From a virus, in IMG/VR virus record IMGVR_UViG_3300050821_023950, positions 1 through 40,876 of that record: DNA of 40,876 nucleotides. One strand, 5' to 3'. The stretch's first letter is position 1; each line of letters starts with the position of its first letter. Positions 8,887 through 31,000 of this stretch are shown one piece after another. The notes beneath the pieces are model-generated. The model did not search any database. It saw only the letters and a list, made by a program, of their open reading frames with translations, and was not told the origin of the DNA. A program made the position numbers and the translations under genes.

Positions 8887-9464
8887 TGCGCGGCCTCCTC
8901 CAAGGGAGGGTTTGCGACGGGGCAGTTCTTGATGCGGTGAGAGCCTCCGGTGAAGTCGAGGTTGCGGTCGTCGGGTTGGTGGTAACCGCACACATGGTGA
9001 TGGACGCCGTCGATCACAAAACAGAACAGCGCCGGCGGTGGCGCACCACGAAGTCGGTGACGGTCGACGTTTTCGCAGCGGGGACCGATCCCCGGCCCGA
9101 GTTTTACTTTGCGAGTTGGCAAGCCTGAGCGTGCCGGTAGCTGCTTTGGTTTCGCCGACGTTGCAGGTTCGTCCTGTCCGAAAATGTCTTCGGGGCGCAG
9201 AACGGTGCGCGAACCTTCGAGCGCAAGAAACTTGTTGACGATGAGGCTGATCACGAATCGCTCTCCGCGAGTGAACTGCTCACGAAGGAAAGAAGGCTCC
9301 AGTAACCGCATCGCCTGATCTACCAGGGCGGTCACCTCGCTGTTGCTCTGAGGCGAAGGATCTGCGGGCCGCCCCGCCCCGGAAGCCGGGCGAAAGGCGC
9401 CGACCACTCGCGACAAGCCAAGAAGACATAGCGCCGCTAACGACGATCCCATCTGGCGGCGCAT
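8883..9464 (-). CDS. Hypothetical early protein with Cys/His-rich C-terminus, 193 aa
   Basis: The start is ATG 9464, touching the regulator stop as TGATG; a second ATG lies at 9452. The first 24 residues include a hydrophobic run ([18 protein letters not shown]) that could be a weak signal or membrane anchor. Residues 40-95 are helical ([17 protein letters not shown]). The C-terminal third has spaced Cys and His ([31 protein letters not shown]), which could form a metal site. No family recognised. It is the second gene of the leftward early operon. Confidence 0.5.
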
Positions 9465-9760
9465 CACGCGAGCTCCCGTTCGAGATCGGACAGGGCGATC
9501 CACCCCAGTGCTAGGCGCTGTCGCCGATCCAGTCTGCGCAGGACGCTCTTGTCGACGGAAAGTACCCTCGAAAGAGAGTCGAGGACACGATTGCTGGCGC
9601 CTGGGCGCTTCGCTCGTTCGAGGTCGGATAAGTAGGCCGGCGAGATCCCTGCTTTCGCGGCGGTCTGCCGGACGCTCAGCTTCGTCTTGGTCCGAAGTGA
9701 CCTGAGCGCACTCGCAAGCGGGTAAGTTTGCGGGTCAAGTGCTCCTGCTATACGTAGCAT
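9464..9760 (-). CDS. XRE-family helix-turn-helix regulator, 98 aa
   Basis: The gene opens the leftward early operon. An XRE/Cro-type HTH occupies residues about 15-70 (LRTKTKLSVRQTAAKAGIS, then PAYLSDLERAKRPG). I choose ATG 9760; an upstream TTG at 9796 is in frame but is better read as the -35 box of the promoter. With that promoter the transcript would start within a base or two of ATG 9760, giving a leaderless mRNA. The start codon also lies inside an inverted repeat that could be its own operator. It is either the immunity repressor or a Ner/Cro-like autoregulator of transposition genes; the opposed XRE gene at 9870 is the other candidate for repressor. Confidence 0.8.
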   Translation of the reverse strand: MLRIAGALDPQTYPLASALRSLRTKTKLSVRQTAAKAGISPAYLSDLERAKRPGASNRVLDSLSRVLSVDKSVLRRLDRRQRLALGWIALSDLERELA

Positions 9761-9820
9761 GTCAGCTACTGTAAGCCGCCAGTGGCCGCAAGTCAACCCC
9801 TAAAATAGCTCACTTGCTAC
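9747..9820. promoter_or_regulatory. Paired TAGC-N6-GCTA operator-like repeats
   Basis: Two copies of TAGC-N6-GCTA occur, at 9755-9768 and 9806-9819, with centres 51 bases apart, close to five helical turns. The first can be extended to GTAGC-N6-GCTAC and covers the -10 box and start codon of the leftward XRE gene. A further GCTA half-site lies at 9747. The second copy lies just upstream of the rightward XRE gene's promoter region. Spacing and dyad symmetry are as expected for XRE dimer sites; binding is inference. Confidence 0.55.
9768..9796 (-). promoter_or_regulatory. Early leftward promoter (TTGACT-17-TACAGT)
   Basis: On the minus strand TTGACT (9796-9791) is separated by 17 bases from TACAGT (9773-9768). 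The -10 element ends 7 bases before ATG 9760, so transcription would begin at or beside the start codon. An inverted repeat overlaps the -10 box. This is the only good sigma-70-type pair found upstream of the early operon. Confidence 0.6.
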
Positions 9821-9869: not shown

Positions 9870-10268
9870 ATGCTGACAGCCCACATGACGCGAGTAACCG
9901 TCGACGACGCAGGAATCCGTGCGATGCGGATCGCGCTCAAACTGACGCAGAGACAAGTCGCCACGCTGGCCGGGGTAGCTGAGAGCACCGTCAAACGCAC
10001 CGAGAAGAGAGGGCGCGGGCACAACTTCGTTCGGATTAAGAAGGTTCTCGACGAAGCGGAGAAGAAGGGGGCTCCCCGGGCGGCAGTCGAACACATCGCG
10101 ATAGAGATCGACGGTTCGCCGTCTGACTTAGTGCGCGAGTTCCAGGCGCTCCTCGACGGCATGCAGACGGTCGAACAGCAGTGGGCCGCGGTGCGGGCGT
10201 TCGCGCTGACGGCCGGGAGCGTGGCGGAAGCGCGACTCCGCAGGGGAACAACCGGAGATGACAAATAG
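9870..10268 (+). CDS. XRE-family helix-turn-helix regulator, 132 aa
   Basis: This gene is divergent from the leftward XRE gene and is the first gene of the rightward unit. The HTH is at residues about 12-45: IRAMRIALKLTQRQVATLAG, then VAESTVKRTEKRG. Residues 75-132 form a helical tail that may dimerise or contact a partner. ATG 9870 gives 132 residues; ATG 9885 gives 127 and also fits, and neither has a clear Shine-Dalgarno. The stop overlaps the next start by 11 nt, so the next gene (a TPR-type protein) is translationally coupled. It probably acts as a lysogeny/lysis regulator binding the nearby inverted repeats. Confidence 0.8.
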   Translation: MLTAHMTRVTVDDAGIRAMRIALKLTQRQVATLAGVAESTVKRTEKRGRGHNFVRIKKVLDEAEKKGAPRAAVEHIAIEIDGSPSDLVREFQALLDGMQTVEQQWAAVRAFALTAGSVAEARLRRGTTGDDK

Positions 10269-11424
10269 CCCGATCGATGCGGCACTCTCCACGCTGCTCG
10301 CTTGCGGGCTGGAGGGCATCATCAATAAAGAGGCGGCCGCGAGTTTGGCGGTCGCTGACGATCAGCTTGCGGAATCGACCGCCAGCGAGATCCTCAGCCT
10401 CGATACTAGGGCGATTGATGCATTCGAAGTTGGCCCGGAGCTGAAGAGACCCGCGGTCGCATGGAAGCTACTCGACTCTCTCGACGCTGAACGGTACCAC
10501 TGGAATCCAGAAAGACTCCTGGCCGTGGCCAAGCTCGCCTATGTAATCGCGTCCTCCCGACCGAGCAGCGCCATGCTTGAGTTCATCGCTCTCAAAGAGC
10601 AGGCGACGGCACTCAAACTGTTGTTTCGTTTTGATGACGCTCACCGGACGCTCGACCGGGCGGCTATCGTGGCCCGTCGCACATCGTCATCGGTCGTCAA
10701 CCTTGCAATTGTCGATTACGCCCGCGCCGGCGTGTGCTGCGACGCGCAACAGCGCCAAGACGCGCTCATCTTGCTTCATCGTGCGCAAGCCGTGTTTCGG
10801 TCTACTGGCGAGGATCGCCGGCTCGAGCAAAGCAAGAGCCTGGAGGCGACGATCCTCTTCGGCCTCGGTCGCTACGAGGACGCTTGCGTGATCTATGAGG
10901 CGGCGCTCTCATCTGCGGTCGCGAGGAACGACAATCAGCGAATGGCAATGGAGGTCGGCAACATCGGCCACTGCTGCATGATGCTAAGAGAAACGGAAGC
11001 CGCGAGAGGTTACCTCTCCATGGCGGCAGAGATGTATGCCGCAGAAGGAATGGGAATAGGTCAAGCGACTGCGTTGCGTGCGCTTGGCCGCCTCACGATA
11101 CGGGAAGCCGGCGCCGATGAGGAGGAAGAGATCCTTCAGGCTTCAACTATATTCGAGCGTCTCGGCTTGATTGGGCAATGGTGCCTAACGCGACTCGCAC
11201 TCGCGGAAGAGTTGCTTGAATTTGCCCCAGATGCCGACGTCGATGTGATTTGCCAGGAGGCGCTGAATCGCGCCGTCGATGCGCGGATAGGTGTGATCAC
11301 GGCGAGTGCGTTGGCGCTCCTGAGCCACGCAGCGAAACAGCGCGACGTGACTCCGGATTTTGTGCGCGAGGTGTCGTGCTGCATTGATCCATCAGCAATC
11401 ACTGCGAGCGCAAATGAGCGCTGA
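10258..11424 (+). CDS. TPR-type helical-repeat protein, 388 aa
   Basis: ATG 10258 lies inside the end of the XRE gene (11-nt overlap). The protein is almost wholly helical. Units fitting TPR spacing include KLLFRFDDAHRTLDRAAIVA (residues about 120-140), ATILFGLGRYEDACVIYEAA (about 200-220) and MLRETEAARGYLSMAAEMYA (about 240-262), with degenerate repeats on both sides. There is no HTH or enzyme motif. An XRE DNA-binding protein fused or coupled to a TPR protein is the design of peptide-sensing RRNPP regulators (Rap, PlcR, AimR); here the two parts are separate, overlapping genes. A role in signal input to the switch is an inference from that arrangement. Confidence 0.7.
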   Translation: MTNSPIDAALSTLLACGLEGIINKEAAASLAVADDQLAESTASEILSLDTRAIDAFEVGPELKRPAVAWKLLDSLDAERYHWNPERLLAVAKLAYVIASSRPSSAMLEFIALKEQATALKLLFRFDDAHRTLDRAAIVARRTSSSVVNLAIVDYARAGVCCDAQQRQDALILLHRAQAVFRSTGEDRRLEQSKSLEATILFGLGRYEDACVIYEAALSSAVARNDNQRMAMEVGNIGHCCMMLRETEAARGYLSMAAEMYAAEGMGIGQATALRALGRLTIREAGADEEEEILQASTIFERLGLIGQWCLTRLALAEELLEFAPDADVDVICQEALNRAVDARIGVITASALALLSHAAKQRDVTPDFVREVSCCIDPSAITASANER

Positions 11425-15410: not shown

Positions 15411-15707
15411 ATGGCGATGCCGGAATGGCTGACTCAGACGCTTACTGTCGCCGCGCTCGGCGTTGTGGGCTGGTTCATGCGCAGCCTGCGCAACGACATC
15501 GACAGGATCAAGTACCAACTGGCCCGCAATTACGTCACGCACCGGCAACTGCGCGGGCTGCGGACCGACCTGCGCAACACCATCGCGTCGATCAACCACC
15601 TGCAGGTCGCTCTGGCGCAGCAGTTCAAATTCAAGCCATTCATCGTCACGCCGGATCCGGCCAGTGAGTACGACCAGGGCGAGGAGATCGAGCACGATGG
15701 CGAGTAA
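15411..15707 (+). CDS. Membrane-anchored coiled-coil protein, 98 aa (gp25/DUF2730-like)
   Basis: The start is ATG 15411 with AGGGAGAG adjacent. Residues 8-24 are a single N-terminal membrane segment (TQTLTVAALGVVGWFM). After it comes a helical region with heptad pattern (RNDIDRIKYQLARNYV, RTDLRNTIASINHLQVAL) and an acidic tail (EYDQGEEIEHDGE). The plan is the same as small Mu-type proteins encoded just before the terminase (Mu gp25, DUF2730) and as Rz-type inner-membrane spanins. The location directly before the packaging genes favours the gp25-like reading. Its stop overlaps the methyltransferase start by 11 nt. Confidence 0.55.
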   Translation: MAMPEWLTQTLTVAALGVVGWFMRSLRNDIDRIKYQLARNYVTHRQLRGLRTDLRNTIASINHLQVALAQQFKFKPFIVTPDPASEYDQGEEIEHDGE

Positions 15708-16545
15708 CCCTCACGTGACGCTCATCAACGGCGACAGCCGCCGCGTGCTCGATCGCATCGACGACGAGTATGTCGACGCGGTCGTCACCGATCCTCCCTA
15801 CGAGATCGGTTTCAACAATGCCAGGTGGGACTCCACGGGCGTGGCGATGTCGAAGGATCTATGGGCGAACGTTCTGCGCGTGACGCGGCCTGGCGCGTAC
15901 CTACTGGCCTTCGGAGCGACGCGCACGTTCCACCGGCTCACGAGCGCGATCGAAGACGCGGGCTTCGAGATTCAGGACTGCCTGGTCTGGCTATACAGCA
16001 ACGGATTCCCCAAGCACCGCTCGCGACTCAAGCCCGCGTGGGAGCCGATCGTGCTGGCCAGGAAGCGCGCGCCGAACGCCACAGTGCTGAACATCGAAGA
16101 GTGCCGCGTGAACGGCCGCTGGCCGGCGAACGTACTCTTCGATGAGGCCGCGGCCGAGCTCTTGGACGATCTATACCCGCGCCGCGGCGAGCCGATCTCC
16201 CGCATGTACTACGTCGCTAAGCCGACGTCGCAGGAGCGCGACCTGGGGCTGGAAGGTCACGGCTTCAAACGCCGGCAGATCAACCTTCTGGCAGGCCTCC
16301 GTAAGCCGACGCGGCCGCGCTTCAACATTCATCCGACCGTCAAGCCGATCACGCTGATGCGGCACCTCGTTGCTCTGGTCACCCCGGACGAAGGTCGCGT
16401 GCTGGACCCGTTCACGGGAAGCGGGACGACCGGTTGCGCGGCCGTGATCGAGGGGCGCTCGTTCGTCGGCATCGAGCGCGAGCATCAGTCATACCGGTTC
16501 GCGCACGCGCGGATCGAGTACTGGAAGGAGCACCGGGCGGCGTGA
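15697..16545 (+). CDS. DNA adenine/cytosine-N4 methyltransferase, beta class, 282 aa
   Basis: This enzyme transfers a methyl group from S-adenosylmethionine to an exocyclic amino group on DNA. The catalytic motif DPPY is at residues about 32-35 and the AdoMet-binding motif FTGSGTTG at about 239-246, preceded by HPTVKP at about 212. Catalytic motif first, AdoMet motif last, is the beta-class order. The central residues 100-205 would be the target-recognition region. The start is ATG 15697, 11 nt inside the previous gene; the stop overlaps the terminase small subunit start as GTGA. No restriction endonuclease is adjacent, so it probably protects phage DNA from host restriction. The specificity cannot be read from sequence. 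Confidence 0.9.
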   Translation: MASNPHVTLINGDSRRVLDRIDDEYVDAVVTDPPYEIGFNNARWDSTGVAMSKDLWANVLRVTRPGAYLLAFGATRTFHRLTSAIEDAGFEIQDCLVWLYSNGFPKHRSRLKPAWEPIVLARKRAPNATVLNIEECRVNGRWPANVLFDEAAAELLDDLYPRRGEPISRMYYVAKPTSQERDLGLEGHGFKRRQINLLAGLRKPTRPRFNIHPTVKPITLMRHLVALVTPDEGRVLDPFTGSGTTGCAAVIEGRSFVGIEREHQSYRFAHARIEYWKEHRAA

Positions 16546-24018: not shown

Positions 24019-24084
24019 TCCGGAGGCTGGGACAACGGCATTCATTGATTCGCTCATCACGGGCGGAAGGGAAGGGTGGGAAAG

Positions 24085-25089
24085 ATGGGCAAGGTACTCT
24101 TGGCGGCCGACAAACTCGGCTCACTGCGGATGGTGGATCCGCACATCACGGCGCTCGCGAACGGCTATCGCGCGCCCAAGCTCCTCGGCATCACGAAGAT
24201 TTACCCGATCGTGCCCTCGCCGAAGGAAGCCGGCAAATACACGAATTGGGCTCCCGATCCGTACATCGACATCAACAGGCTCAAGGTCGGGCTGGGCACC
24301 AAGCGGCTCCGCATCGACGTCAACAACTCGAGCGGCACGTTCGCAACCGCGCAGTTCGAAATCGAGGTGGCCATCCTCGACCGGGAACTGAAGGAAATCA
24401 TCGACGACGACCGCGAGACCTACGTCGAGAAGAAGTCGCTCCGCGGCGAACGCGTCGTGCAGCTCGGCATGGAGGTCGCGGTGGCCACGCGTCTCCAGAA
24501 CGGCGCGAACTACGCGTCGAACTACGTGTCGACGCTGTCGGGCGGGAACCTGTTTTCCGACTATACCAACTCCGATCCGGTCTCGATTCTGAGCCCGATG
24601 ATCACCCGCGTCGCGCTCTCGTGCGGGCTCGATGAGGAAGACATGGGCGTCTACTTCTCGCCGATCGCCTGGCTCACCTTCAAGAACCATCCGAAGGTGC
24701 TCTCGCGCGCTGTCGGTACGACCGGGAAGGAGCCGTCGAAGGGCCGTGTGGCCGAGATCCTAAACGTCAGGGACGTCGACAAGCTCGCGTCCTCCTATTT
24801 CGTGACGATCGACGAGACCAACATCGACAACAACGTCGCCGCGCGCATCTGGAATGACTGCGTCATCATCTGCCCGCCGGCGCCGGCGACCTCGGACCCC
24901 GACACGCCGCTGCCTGGCGCGGTCGTTCGCCACACCGACTTCCCCGAGGTCGAGGAGTACATCGACCAGACGGTCGGCGGCGGGCCGGCCACCGTGAAGG
25001 TGACCAAGGACAACTGGGGCATCACGCAGATCTCCCAGAAGCGCGTCGCGCTCTTCAAGAACGTGACCGGCCTGGCGGAGGTGTCGTAG
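24085..25089 (+). CDS. Major capsid protein, 334 aa
   Basis: I choose ATG 24085 after a GGGAAGGGTGGG purine stretch; GTG 24076 is in frame and would add three residues. The protein has the size and alpha/beta profile of HK97-fold shell proteins. It has a long N-terminal region with SLRMVDPHITALANGYRAPK, a helical spine (EVAILDRELKEIIDDDRETY) and a domain with MGVYFSPIAWLTFKNHPKVL. The C-terminal WGITQISQKRVALFKNVTG is typical of capsid ends. The position after the protease/scaffold and decoration genes fixes the role. Its gene is bracketed by two hairpins, as expected for a highly expressed product. Confidence 0.85.
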   Translation: MGKVLLAADKLGSLRMVDPHITALANGYRAPKLLGITKIYPIVPSPKEAGKYTNWAPDPYIDINRLKVGLGTKRLRIDVNNSSGTFATAQFEIEVAILDRELKEIIDDDRETYVEKKSLRGERVVQLGMEVAVATRLQNGANYASNYVSTLSGGNLFSDYTNSDPVSILSPMITRVALSCGLDEEDMGVYFSPIAWLTFKNHPKVLSRAVGTTGKEPSKGRVAEILNVRDVDKLASSYFVTIDETNIDNNVAARIWNDCVIICPPAPATSDPDTPLPGAVVRHTDFPEVEEYIDQTVGGGPATVKVTKDNWGITQISQKRVALFKNVTGLAEVS

Positions 25090-26099: not shown

Positions 26100-26752
26100 T
26101 GGCGATGGGCCTCGATGTCACGGGTCTGGACGTGATGCAGAAGGCGCTCGAGCTGGCGGTCGCGCGCTCGCAGGATATGGCGCAGGTCTGGAACGACTTC
26201 GGCGAGGAAGCGATCCTCCAGACGCACCTGCGTGCCGCCGGTGGCATCGCTCCGGACGGCTCAGCGTGGCCGGTTTCGGCACGCGCTGCCGGGGTGAGCG
26301 GACAGACGCTCGATAGGACCGGGCGCCTTCTGGCCTCGGCGAGCTACGAGTGGAACGGCCGCGAGTTCACGCTCTTTTCCGACGACATCCGCGCGGCCGT
26401 TCACCAGGAAGGCAAGACGATTCGCCCGACCGCGGGCAAGAAGGCCCTGGCCATTCCGATGAGCGAGGAAGTCGCCAGTCAGTACAAGGCGGGCGTCTCG
26501 ATCCGCGAGCAGTGGCCGGACTCGTTCCTTCTCGTCTCGGAGGCCGGCAACGCCTTTATCGTCCAGCGGCGCGGGCAACGCATCGCGCACACGAGCTCGC
26601 AGCTCGGCGCGATCGAGTTCCTGTTCATGCTCGTGCCGAGCGTGACCGAGCCGGAACGCCGGTGGCTCGGATTCTCGGAGACAGACATCCTCGGATTCGA
26701 GGGGATCGTCATCCGTCACTACGGCCTGTTCGGCCAGGGAGGCGATGCGTGA
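26099..26752 (+). CDS. G: Virion morphogenesis/tail completion protein, Mu gpG-like, 217 aa
   Basis: The start is ATG 26099, in TGATGG with the previous stop. The N-terminal 100 residues follow the PF05069 pattern (gpG/gpS): DVTGLDVMQKALELAVARSQ, WNDFGEEAILQTHLRAAGGI, then PDGSAWPVSARAAG and LDRTGRLLASASYEW. The rest is beta-rich with a conserved-looking GKKALAIPMSEEV segment and an end in GFEGIVIRHYGLFG. It completes the tail or tail-head joint. The following gene starts 8 nt before its stop. Confidence 0.75.
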   Translation: MAMGLDVTGLDVMQKALELAVARSQDMAQVWNDFGEEAILQTHLRAAGGIAPDGSAWPVSARAAGVSGQTLDRTGRLLASASYEWNGREFTLFSDDIRAAVHQEGKTIRPTAGKKALAIPMSEEVASQYKAGVSIREQWPDSFLLVSEAGNAFIVQRRGQRIAHTSSQLGAIEFLFMLVPSVTEPERRWLGFSETDILGFEGIVIRHYGLFGQGGDA

Positions 26753-27434
26753 GATGGCACTCGCAATCGTTCAGTTTCTTTTCGTCGCCATGGGCTGGGT
26801 GCGCTGGGAGGACCCGATGCTAACGCCGGAAATGAGCTCCGAATACGAGCGGATGTTTGCCTCGTGCAACACGAACATGAACCGCCGCCCCGAGGCCGAC
26901 GAGATCATCACGAGGATGATGAAATTCCGCGATCGCTACGAGGCCGTGAGCCGTCCGACGGGCGTCCCCTGGTACGTCATCGCCACGATCCACAACATGG
27001 AGTGCGACGGCCGGTTCGACTGTCACCTCCACAACGGCGACCCGCTCACAGCCAGGACCGTCGACGTGCCGGCCGGCCGCCCGATCAGCGGGAATCCTCC
27101 TTTCACCTGGGAAGAGAGCGCCATCGACGCGCTCAGGTTCGAAGGATTCGACGTGATGCGCAACTGGGACGTCGCGCACACGCTCTACAAGATCGAGGCG
27201 TACAACGGATTCGGATCACGCCAGCACGGAGTTCCGACGCCGTACCTGTGGGCCGGCTCGCAGCACTACGTGCGCGGGAAGTTCGTCGCCGATCATCAGT
27301 TCGATCCGCATGCAGTTTCCGAAGAGATCGGGGCCGCGGTGCTGCTTCATCGGATGAGCTACGAGCATCTGATCGACTTCCCGCCGGGGACGGCGCCGGC
27401 CGCTCCTGCAGCTCCCAGCGGAGGACAGCAGTGA
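26745..27434 (+). CDS. Endolysin (lysozyme-type glycosidase), 229 aa
   Basis: The start is ATG 26745 with GGGAGG two bases upstream (a tight fit); ATG 26754 is an alternative with 11-nt spacing. The catalytic region has TIHNMECDGRFDCHLHNGDP (E in the first helix, likely the acid) followed by VPAGRP and FTWEESAIDAL. Later are YNGFGSRQHGVPTPYLWAG, HYVRGKFVADHQF and GAAVLLHRM. This set of motifs matches a lysozyme-like family seen in phage and bacterial cell-wall hydrolases. The first 20 residues (MALAIVQFLFVAMGWV) are hydrophobic and could be a signal-anchor, as in SAR endolysins. It lies in the tail module, 12 kb from the probable holin. Confidence 0.75.
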   Translation: MREMALAIVQFLFVAMGWVRWEDPMLTPEMSSEYERMFASCNTNMNRRPEADEIITRMMKFRDRYEAVSRPTGVPWYVIATIHNMECDGRFDCHLHNGDPLTARTVDVPAGRPISGNPPFTWEESAIDALRFEGFDVMRNWDVAHTLYKIEAYNGFGSRQHGVPTPYLWAGSQHYVRGKFVADHQFDPHAVSEEIGAAVLLHRMSYEHLIDFPPGTAPAAPAAPSGGQQ

Positions 27435-27436
27435 TT

Positions 27437-27778
27437 TCAGCGAGTCGCAGGTTCGGGGCGGAAGTAGAGCCACAGCAGCGCGAGGCGCTTGCGCTCGATC
27501 AGATCGCCAAGGTTGTTATCGGCGAGGGTTCGTTCAAGGGCACTCCTAACTTCTGCCTCATATCGGCCCGACGTCGCAATGATGTGATGGAGGTCGCTCG
27601 AAAAGCTATCGCGCCAGGCTGGCACAGTATCGAGAATGAGGGCGGCCGCGTCCATTGCCTTCTTGACCTCAGCACTTCTCTTGATCATCTCAGAGAGAAA
27701 CGGTACCAGGTCTCGGAGGCTATGCTTTCGCCGCAGTTGGTCGGCCTTGATCTTCTTGCGTCTGGGCGATCTGCTCAT
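27437..27778 (-). CDS. Reverse-strand moron protein, 113 aa
   Basis: The gene runs against the late operon. Its start, ATG 27778, has AAGGAG six bases upstream, and its stop is 2 bases from the end of the endolysin gene on the other strand. The product is very basic at the start (SRSPRRKKIKADQLRRK) and otherwise helical (LRDLVPFLSEMIKRSAEVKK, EVRSALERTLADNNLGDLIE, RLALLWLYF). There is no membrane segment or catalytic motif. It is coupled (ATGA) to the small membrane peptide upstream. Its orientation and probable own promoter are marks of a moron, expressed in lysogeny. The function is unknown. Confidence 0.65.
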   Translation of the reverse strand: MSRSPRRKKIKADQLRRKHSLRDLVPFLSEMIKRSAEVKKAMDAAALILDTVPAWRDSFSSDLHHIIATSGRYEAEVRSALERTLADNNLGDLIERKRLALLWLYFRPEPATR

Positions 27779-27873
27779 CGGCCACTCCTTCTGGGCGATA
27801 GAAAAGCCACGATGACAAGCGCTTCAAATAGAAGTGCGATCGTCGCGCCGATCAAGAGCAATCCGCCGACCAT
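27775..27873 (-). CDS. 32-residue transmembrane peptide
   Basis: ATG 27873 opens a frame of 32 residues that ends in ATGA with the moron gene start. Residues 3-25 are a continuous hydrophobic helix (GGLLLIGATIALLFEALVIV), followed by a basic tail (SPRRSGR), which favours an inward C-terminus. A GAGGG sequence precedes the start by 3 bases, and a perfect TATAAT lies 8 bases upstream. Too short to classify. It resembles small toxic or envelope-active peptides in form only. Confidence 0.55.
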   Translation of the reverse strand: MVGGLLLIGATIALLFEALVIVAFLSPRRSGR

Positions 27874-27881
27874 GGTCCCTC

Positions 27882-27887
27882 ATTATA
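27882..27887 (-). promoter_or_regulatory. TATAAT box for the moron pair
   Basis: The minus strand reads TATAAT at 27887-27882, a perfect -10 element in a GC-rich region, 8 bases before the start of the 32-residue peptide. No good -35 box lies 16-18 bases upstream. On the plus strand the same bases adjoin the AAGGAGG of the tail gene at 27900, so promoter and ribosome-binding site overlap. Confidence 0.5.
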
Positions 27888-27899
27888 AGGAGGTCGCGC

Positions 27900-28388
27900 G
27901 TGCCTGAGCTCGACCTCGAGCAATTCTTCCTCGTCGACGCGCCGGCGCGTGTGCGCGCCTTCCTCGACGAGAATGCGCTGCCTCTCATCACGACGGCCGA
28001 CACGCTGCCGGATGCGATGGATAGCGCCTCGGATGTGCCGAGCCTGTTTGGGATCCACGGACGGATGCCGAACCAGATGGTGAACGGCCGTCGCCGCCTG
28101 GTCGCCGGCCACCGCAAGAAGCTCTACAAGTTCATGCCGGTCTTTGCGGTGGTGACCGAGAGCTACGCCTCGAACTTCAAAGAGGACGGCCGCGCCGGCG
28201 GATGGACGCTCATGCAGCAGATCGCGAACATCTTCGACGGATGGCTGGCGCCGGGGATGAACCGGGCCTTCGACGTCGTCGACATGCAGTTCGTCATCCG
28301 GTCGGCCGACCTCACGCGCGTGCAGCACCAGATCGTGCTCGAGGGCGGAGCGGAACTGTTCACAACTCCGGCGCTCGTCGCGCCATAA
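27900..28388 (+). CDS. Tail terminator-like protein, Mu gp37 position, 162 aa
   Basis: The start is GTG 27900 with AAGGAGG five bases upstream; the longer open frame has no site. The product is alpha/beta with YKFMPVFAVVTESYASNF, a Trp/Met-rich helix (WTLMQQIANIFDGWLAPGM) and an end strand (VVDMQFVIRSADLTRVQHQI). Its location between gpG and the tail tube suggests a tail terminator/joining protein like lambda gpU or Mu gp37. The match is by position and general fold rather than by a signature. Confidence 0.45.
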   Translation: MPELDLEQFFLVDAPARVRAFLDENALPLITTADTLPDAMDSASDVPSLFGIHGRMPNQMVNGRRRLVAGHRKKLYKFMPVFAVVTESYASNFKEDGRAGGWTLMQQIANIFDGWLAPGMNRAFDVVDMQFVIRSADLTRVQHQIVLEGGAELFTTPALVAP

Positions 28389-29951: not shown

Positions 29952-30647
29952 ATGACCAAGGTCCGCAAGATTCGCAATCACGCCCTCGCCGTTCCGGTCG
30001 ATCATCCGGACGGCGGGACGCTTCACATCTATCCGATCGACGCGGTGCGCAACGGCCGGCTGCAGGATGAGCTGCAGGGGCTTCGCTACCTGCATGACGT
30101 GACCGGCGCGCTGGTGATCCAGGACGGCAAACCCGTCGAGGCCGAGACCACGAACGAGAAGGCGACCCGCGGGAAGATCGACATCTTCCGCAGGAACCTG
30201 GTCGAGAAGATCACGAACGTCGTCAACATCGACGATCCGTTCGAGCTCGACGAGGACGGCAACCCGAAACTCGACGACAAGGGCGATCCCGTGCTCAAGC
30301 TCATCACCATCACCGAGCCGGCCGCCATCAATGACTTCCTGGGCGAGGTCTCGAATCACATGGTCGAGCGCGAGGTCGCTCTCACCGAATGGCGCGAGCG
30401 CCAGGTGACCAAGGAAAGCGTCATCCCCTCGGCCGATGGCGGCGAGCCGACGCGCATCATCGAGACCAGGACCGAGGTCGTCTGCGAGCCGGTCATCGCA
30501 AACGGAAAGGCTACGACCGAGAAGCGCCAGGTCCAGGCCAACAAACCCATGGTCGACTGGGTCCTCGAGCAGGCGCAGGCTCTGGTTTCGTCGGCGGAGG
30601 CGGAAACAAAAAACTTCTCGCCCACGCCGGTCAGTTCTTCGGTCTAG
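29952..30647 (+). CDS. Tail assembly chaperone G, 231 aa
   Basis: The start is ATG 29952 with AGAAAGAGGAG upstream. The protein is charged and alpha/beta: KIRNHALAVPVDHPDGGTLH, FRRNLVEKITNVVNIDDPFE and ITEPAAINDFLGEVSNHMVE, ending soon after the slippery site in KNFSPTPVSSSV. It fills the lambda gpG slot, between the tail tube and the tape measure. It would bind the tape measure and deliver tube subunits. A fraction of ribosomes should slip at 30608-30614 and continue as the 349-residue GT form. Confidence 0.75.
   Translation: MTKVRKIRNHALAVPVDHPDGGTLHIYPIDAVRNGRLQDELQGLRYLHDVTGALVIQDGKPVEAETTNEKATRGKIDIFRRNLVEKITNVVNIDDPFELDEDGNPKLDDKGDPVLKLITITEPAAINDFLGEVSNHMVEREVALTEWRERQVTKESVIPSADGGEPTRIIETRTEVVCEPVIANGKATTEKRQVQANKPMVDWVLEQAQALVSSAEAETKNFSPTPVSSSV
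30608..30614 (+). other. -1 programmed frameshift site, A AAA AAC
   Basis: The heptamer AAAAAAC lies in the correct phase: zero-frame codons are AAA (30609-30611) and AAC (30612-30614). It fits the X XXY YYZ rule exactly. The G frame stops at 30645-30647 and the -1 frame is open to 30998-31000. A weak stem (GGTCA at 30629, TGACC at 30655) lies 14 bases downstream and may be the stimulator. Confidence 0.8.
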
Positions 30648-31000
30648 CGGCCGGTGACCCGGCCTCGCGCATCGCCGAAGCCAAGCGGCGCGCGGCCGAG
30701 TTCAAACGGACCGGGAAGGTACCTCCGCCGGCGTCGCAGGATCGAAGCGCCGGCGGAGGGTTCCTCTGGCCGCAGAACAGGAAGGCGTGGGGGGTATGCC
30801 TCGACATGCTCTCGCAGGTCGAGGTTGCAGGGATGGGAGGCGTGGTCGGGTTCAAGCTCGGCCGCGAGCTCGATCGGGCCGAGGAGGAGAACGACGTCGG
30901 CCCAGAGGAGCGGAGCGACGTCTACCGGAAGGTCAAGGCCTTCGAGCGGTGGTGGGTCGAGCGGATCAGTGAACGAATGAAAGAGGCGGGGAGGAAGTGA
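30614..31000 (+). CDS. T part of the tail chaperone GT fusion (-1 frame)
   Basis: This frame is read only after the -1 slip and adds 128 residues to the first 221 of G. It starts LLAHAGQFFGLAAGDPASRI, continues with a basic helix (AEAKRRAAEFKRTGKVPPPA) and ends in a helical region (RSDVYRKVKAFERWWVERIS). There is no independent start with a ribosome-binding site; the open frame before 30614 is a shadow of G. Location and frame relation match lambda T. The T domain would join the G chaperone to tube or tip proteins. Confidence 0.7.
   Translation, partial: LLAHAGQFFGLAAGDPASRIAEAKRRAAEFKRTGKVPPPASQDRSAGGGFLWPQNRKAWGVCLDMLSQVEVAGMGGVVGFKLGRELDRAEEENDVGPEERSDVYRKVKAFERWWVERISERMKEAGRK

Follow-up and report, generated by a model that had tools for sequence, protein, structure and literature searches.

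An antisense, moron-like cassette in the tail operon of Mu-like phages: a candidate lysogeny locus with a conserved -10 box and exchangeable content

In the late operon of a Mu-like phage, between a probable endolysin gene and a small tail-operon gene, two coupled genes lie on the opposite strand behind a -10 box of their own. Our preferred reading, to which we give a probability of roughly one half, is that they form an antisense accessory (moron-like) lysogeny cassette at a fixed slot, which serves exclusion or defence and is silenced by late transcription. Compared with known moron-like cassettes, and judged from sequence, two traits are unusual: a conserved promoter of the leaderless type that is kept while the cargo is exchanged and, in one relative, a cargo that resembles a piece of a head protein. 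Throughout, 'the window' denotes the whole stretch of DNA analysed, a 40,876-base virus record.

Results

The left part of the window carries, on the minus strand, genes for a Mu-type transposase and for MuB-like, Gam-like and HTH-regulator proteins; the right part is taken up by the late operon, whose plus-strand genes include those for terminase, head, connector and tail. Four relatives emerged from eight viral-contig scans: G001 (3300024323_000012, L001/L005), G002 (3300025944_000014, L002/L006), G003 (3300044737_000120, L003/L007) and G004 (3300049004_000110, L019). A Mu-type transposase was found in all five records. The transposase matches in G001, G002 and G003 contain two to four internal stops, either because the alignment runs across gene ends or because the genes are damaged. 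Since transposable phages are generally temperate, the Mu-like window phage probably is so too. Two scans of bacterial genome contigs revealed neither relatives nor a host.

Several other features of the window deserve mention. The head gene is strongly mosaic: the head protein (24076-25089, plus) is 85% identical to that of G003 and just 42% to that of G001, whereas by the tail gene G001 is the closer relative. A slippery heptamer, A AAA AAC, lies at 30608-30614 (plus), close to where the 231-aa gene preceding the tape-measure gene ends, and the -1 frame is open past it (frames 29952-30647 and 30389-31000, plus). The heptamer is likely to direct a programmed -1 frameshift of the tail assembly chaperone, which we take to be of the G/GT type. 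Upstream of the terminase, a DNA methylase (15463-16545, plus; N6_N4_Mtase, E 9.7e-30) is possibly an anti-restriction function. A 388-aa TPR-type protein without a PHROG match is encoded at 10258-11424 (plus), near the HTH regulator (9464-9796, minus).

The genes on either side of the cassette are identical in kind in all five phages, with 51-58% identity for the upstream lysis gene. Its 229-aa product, which the preliminary description had called an endolysin, is recognised by no Pfam, PHROG or NCBIfam model, but it is 36.5% identical to a 'peptidoglycan-binding protein' of a Bradyrhizobium phage, and the endolysin identity is plausible on this sequence match. Among 50,697 phage records, this unmodelled family has one relative, in Bradyrhizobium phage ppBjS10J-1. 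The downstream neighbour, here called TT, gave no significant family match in Pfam or PHROG.

Table 1. Features of the slot and its surroundings; positions refer to the window unless a relative is named.
Feature	Position	Strand	Remarks
Upstream neighbour, probable endolysin	26745..27434	plus	229 aa
Plus 'bridge' frame	27431..27907	plus	GTGA over lysis-gene stop, ends just past the GTG of TT; non-coding-like codon usage
Gene 2 (B)	27437..27778	minus	113-aa basic protein, pI 10.3, no known family
B N-terminal 18 codons	27725..27778	minus	MSxSPRRKxIKxxQLRRK, common to 4/5 phages; protein-level constraint on this strand
Gene 1	27775..27873	minus	32-aa hydrophobic peptide, one presumed transmembrane stretch, presumed leaderless
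-10 box TATAAT	27882..27887	minus	8 nt before first minus ATG; no recognisable -35
Hairpin over Shine-Dalgarno (27887-27893) and GTG of TT	27890..27917	plus	in late mRNA
Downstream neighbour TT	27900..28388	plus	small tail-operon gene, 162 aa; 62-79% identical in relatives
Slot, window		minus	32 + 113 aa
Slot, G001		minus	79 + 73 + 69 aa
Slot, G002		minus	77 + 76 aa
Slot, G003	L003:5589-5972	minus	single gene, about 127 aa
Slot, G004		minus	66 + 70 aa

A 32-residue peptide and a 113-residue basic protein coupled by ATGA, as the preliminary description had it, are indeed encoded on the minus strand (Table 1), and the cassette spans 27437-27873. One to three minus-strand genes occupy the slot in each of the five records, with contents that differ among them; none of the four relatives has an empty slot. 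In the window, G001, G002 and G004, the last slot gene (B) starts with [MV]S[RN]SPRRKx[IM]Kxx[QR]LR[RK]K and diverges afterwards. This motif occurs once per record in these four phages and not in G003. A degenerate DNA pattern of it recovered two known relatives and missed G004, where the motif differs. The first gene of G001, G002 and G004, called A, encodes an acidic protein (pI 4.1-4.5, 66-79 aa) with a C-terminal GIAP, and B of the same phages is basic (pI 10.2-12.0, 69-76 aa); A and B overlap in two of these three (G002 and G004). In the window, the transmembrane peptide occupies the place of A and B is retained. The cassette ends at most 3 nt from the lysis-gene stop in the window, and in all four relatives the last minus gene enters the lysis gene. 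A holin identity was considered and is unlikely, because the gene orientation runs against the late operon.

In base composition the slot is unlike its neighbours, with a GC content of 0.572 against 0.640 in the flanks. Slot GC is below flank GC in four of the five phages, and slightly higher in G004 (0.630 versus 0.622). GC3 of B is 0.68, compared to 0.81-0.88 in five genes (lys, TT, g28413, tailS and MuB), a value that fits acquired DNA.

Database searches agree with the earlier statement that B belongs to no recognised family. Pfam, PHROGs, NCBIfam and PADLOC contained no significant match for B, nor a family for A or the 73-aa ORF of G001 (the two ORFs of G004 were compared with PADLOC only). 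B had no match among the phages or plasmids searched, and a search of the phage collection gave none for window B, A of G002, the G003 gene or the 73-aa ORF of G001. Comparing the slot proteins with PADLOC revealed no known exclusion or defence family; the sole row (E 0.041) was taken as chance, as were the PDB rows for B (Schlafen 12, uL29 and YaxB, E 0.13 or worse). The structure model of B is of low confidence (pLDDT 62, pTM 0.34). Rfam had no match in the window.

The single slot gene of G003, in turn, has a known relative. It matches PHROG 1005, a major head protein, with E 2.6e-7 over 81 residues, and is 25% identical over 100 residues to the head protein of G001, which is closer to it than G003's own, weakly similar head protein. 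Its structure model (pLDDT 64) has 3bjq as best match (Foldseek probability 1.00, E 1.1e-3), a structure that the head-protein profile of these phages also matches (E 5.5e-8). The gene corresponds to about one third of a head protein, the remainder being missing, and its similarity to phage head proteins extends over a domain. Standing alone and antisense to the late genes, such a piece may interfere with phage particles or act as a decoy for capsid-sensing defence. A limited search of the open-access literature found no description of a prophage in which a piece of a head protein serves for exclusion.

We then asked whether the minus-strand ORFs are coding. Their length is not beyond chance, as an ORF of at least 113 aa arose in 165 of 1,000 shuffles of the slot. 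The codon score of the B frame, however, is the best of the six frames (0.092; shuffles -0.339, sd 0.080). With a codon model of all five phages, window B scores 0.028, well below the backbone genes, as acquired DNA might show. When the 18 N-terminal codons of B were compared among four genomes (six pairs), the minus frame had 34 synonymous against 28 non-synonymous differences, and the other five frames had 4-17 against 42-55; 49 of the 89 base differences in this block fall on third positions. Judged by these substitution patterns, the N-terminus of B is constrained as protein on the minus strand, and on this constraint together with the codon score a chance ORF was rejected for B. Over their own stretch, eight of ten minus ORFs outscore the plus frame. 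The two exceptions are the 32-aa peptide (-0.310 versus -0.202 for plus) and the 73-aa ORF of G001 (-0.082 versus -0.058). For the peptide, which is too short for codon usage to serve as proof, the assignment as a gene rests on position, coupling and hydrophobicity. The last 14 codons of A do not decide the strand, since the plus frame does as well there as the minus frame (16/17 and 16/16).

The TATAAT reported 8 bases before the peptide is present (Table 1). Counting both strands of whole records, this hexamer occurs once each in the window, G001, G002 and G004, and not at all in G003, which has TACGAT instead, 6 nt before ATGATG. All four copies are homologous: they lie 8 nt before the minus ATG and, on the other strand, 12 nt before the GTG of TT, while the sequence of the 8-nt spacer is different in all four phages. 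A lone TATAAT in the window is unremarkable by itself (shuffle mean 0.68), and A or T occupies 47 of the 300 four-fold codon sites of TT. Retention of an A/T hexamer while a GC-rich genome drifts around it is a sign of selection, in a sample of five related phages where conservation near the TT start could partly reflect shared descent and constraint on the ribosome site. B and TATAAT are absent together in one phage, G003, a single case.

A promoter scan found no -35 and no sigma-70 hexamer pair, so a classical sigma-70 promoter was rejected. The spacing resembles that of leaderless genes, whose -10 box, according to PMC3160421, lies 8-14 bases before the transcript start when counted from its second base; in all four TATAAT phages the distance is 13 bases, within this range. 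In Deinococcus, promoters of leaderless genes with nothing but a -10 box have been shown to function (PMC12340547). As in the leaderless (TA-led) bacterial genes described in these papers, the -10 box would put the transcript start, here predicted from spacing, at or next to the start codon, and there is no consistent Shine-Dalgarno sequence.

A scan for terminators identified minus-strand terminator-like sites within the cassette itself (27854-27837 and 27626-27610) and none past B before 25586, thus none between the end of B and 26745. Because a terminator of its own was not found, we call the cassette 'moron-like', and a transcript could continue antisense into the lysis gene.

The plus strand of the slot is open as well. 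A frame of 158 aa in the window runs through the slot in all five phages. Its start codon overlaps the lysis-gene stop in an RTGA (GTGA in four phages, ATGA in one), and its TGA stop just after the GTG of TT is made in all five by a T at the third base of TT codon 2; T occupies 25 of the 300 four-fold sites of TT. When the synonymous codons of the minus genes were re-drawn, all five plus frames stayed open in 15 of 5,000 runs. Yet the codon scores of the frame are shadow-like in 5/5 (-0.035 to -0.197, against 0.212 to 0.419 for 28 backbone genes). On this score the frame was rejected as a protein gene and kept as a possible translational bridge.

In the late mRNA, the ribosome site of TT can pair with TT's own early codons in a hairpin (Table 1) whose sequence, as DNA, is the inverted repeat upstream of the -10 box of the minus promoter. 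The fold is common to four of the five phages and broken in G002. Pairing is present in 95.6% of cells versus at most 44.4% in slid controls, with both sides changed in three of nine pairs. Its stability is ordinary: folds at least as stable (-16.6 kcal/mol) form in 17.8% of the window's late-strand 46-mers and at two of 12 gene starts, TT included; hence it is only the covariation that argues for the hairpin. G003 lacks B yet keeps the inverted repeat in altered sequence, whereas G002 has B and a broken repeat, and this pattern weakens a reading as DNA operator. Taken together, plus frame and hairpin form a possible bridge and coupling device, an interpretation made post hoc on five related sequences.

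Discussion

How would such a cassette work? In the prophage, with the late promoter off, the main sigma factor of the host would use the minus-strand -10 box, and the lysogen would make the 32-aa peptide and, by translational coupling, B. The peptide would sit in the inner membrane, and both proteins would benefit the lysogen, most likely through exclusion of, or defence against, other phages. Upon induction, late transcription on the other strand would cross the cassette and shut it off, so that it would do no harm to the phage's own lytic cycle. We favour exclusion or defence because the head-protein-like cargo of a sister phage hints at interference with particles. Several points speak against this explanation: a -35 is not seen, two minus-strand terminator-like sites fall inside the cassette, the slot proteins match no exclusion or defence family in PADLOC, and the plus strand is open in all five phages, which the moron reading by itself does not predict.

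The preliminary description had proposed a moron, and part of that stands: a reverse accessory pair with its own -10 box and variable content, in the late operon of a phage of temperate type. The lack of a terminator does not fit, and no -35 accompanies the -10 box. As defined in PMC4378225, morons are extra gene units between conserved genes, with their own promoter and deviant composition. Like these, the slot unit lies between two conserved genes, has a putative promoter of its own and an unlike composition, and differs per relative. Unlike them, it comprises two coupled genes, its leaderless-type, -10-only promoter is conserved while the cargo changes, and no terminator is seen after it. 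A related arrangement exists in the Mu-like phage Fc02, where PMC9936078 describes the exclusion genes olg1 and gene 10 in antisense overlap. Here, too, a transposable phage carries small opposite-strand proteins, which in Fc02 have exclusion activity, one of them being made in the lysogen; the Fc02 pair, however, belongs to the repressor region and the slot to the tail operon, and the two are likened by arrangement. In the noncontiguous Tha/Ith operon of S. aureus prophages, as set out in PMC11087260, antisense switching surrounds a prophage defence gene. Opposed transcription that makes a lysogeny function and lytic expression mutually exclusive is common to both, but proteins, position and host differ, and in our case the antisense unit would itself be the lysogeny function. 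For the slot as such, a limited search of the open-access literature found no description.

Other readings of the slot have to be weighed. The preliminary description likened the pair in form to toxin-antitoxin or exclusion pairs. In a toxin-antitoxin-like system, acidic A would neutralise basic B, and the inverted repeat over the promoter would be the operator. Acidic A and basic B do occur together in three relatives, overlapping in G002 and G004, and the repeat lies just upstream of the -10 box. We nevertheless consider this reading unlikely, above all for the window, where B stays but a transmembrane peptide has taken the place of the acidic, antitoxin-like first gene. Moreover, no toxin-antitoxin family gave a significant match, the C-terminal parts of the B proteins are unlike each other, and the repeat does not follow the presence of B, being kept in G003 and broken in G002. 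About equally doubtful is a counter-defence operon of the acr-aca kind, in which a variable inhibitor is followed by a conserved, DNA-binding B that represses the shared promoter. The variable first gene and the small conserved second gene behind a shared promoter resemble such operons as described in PMC9410906. The accessory site fits as well, since Mu-like phages of P. aeruginosa carry their anti-CRISPR genes in an accessory region of low GC (PMC4378225). G003, the sole phage without B, is also the sole one without TATAAT, but only this one instance of joint loss is seen. According to PMC9410906, Aca proteins are of the helix-turn-helix type, whereas window B matches no HTH model used and could be modelled in structure with low confidence only; a link to CRISPR was not seen.

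Two further alternatives turn from the small proteins to the nucleic acid or to the other strand. If the transcript itself mattered, an antisense RNA across the lysis gene would silence that gene in the lysogen and the small ORFs would be secondary. The position of the cassette within 3 nt of the lysis-gene stop, the overlap of the last minus gene with the lysis gene in all four relatives and the scan without minus terminator-like sites from the end of B to 26745 are in line with this. Still, it appears improbable, as the protein-level constraint on B and the recognisable protein of G003 show that proteins matter, and terminator-like sites lie within the cassette. Finally, the real gene could be on the plus strand and the minus ORFs its shadow. 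The preliminary description had named a plus-strand gene in all relatives as evidence against its own reading. An open plus frame is nominally there in 5/5, overlapping the lysis-gene stop by RTGA and reaching the tail gene, and it survives synonymous shuffling of the minus genes in very few runs. But minus genes are likewise present in 5/5, the plus frame scores as an antisense shadow in each phage, and the frame facing the B block has 11 synonymous versus 51 non-synonymous differences. With the minus gene of G003 being, in addition, a relative of head proteins, we regard a plus-strand gene as very unlikely; at the end of A, the two strands are indistinguishable.

A wider reading, which we put forward as tentative and consider unlikely, would give both strands a role. 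On the minus strand, one conserved leaderless promoter would serve exchangeable lysogeny cargo, and the head piece of G003 would be a decoy or a poison of the head assembly of other phages. On the plus strand, ribosomes exiting the lysis gene would re-start at RTGA and read through the strand opposite the cargo, making a bridge peptide without meaning; by terminating within the hairpin loop they would open the TT ribosome site, which the hairpin hides. As both strands would have to stay open under such a dual use, cargo could be retained only if stop-free both ways.

If the antisense lysogeny cassette and its dual-strand extension are correct, a TATAAT at 8 nt from an ATG, opposite a tail gene, would mark a site of prophage-time genes in unstudied transposable phages, and small exclusion or counter-defence proteins could be collected by position. 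The head-protein piece, if used as cargo, would be a direct and testable case of a prophage that turns part of a structural protein against its rivals. The need to keep both strands open, in turn, would account for the presence of an antisense insert in a late operon without polar effects.
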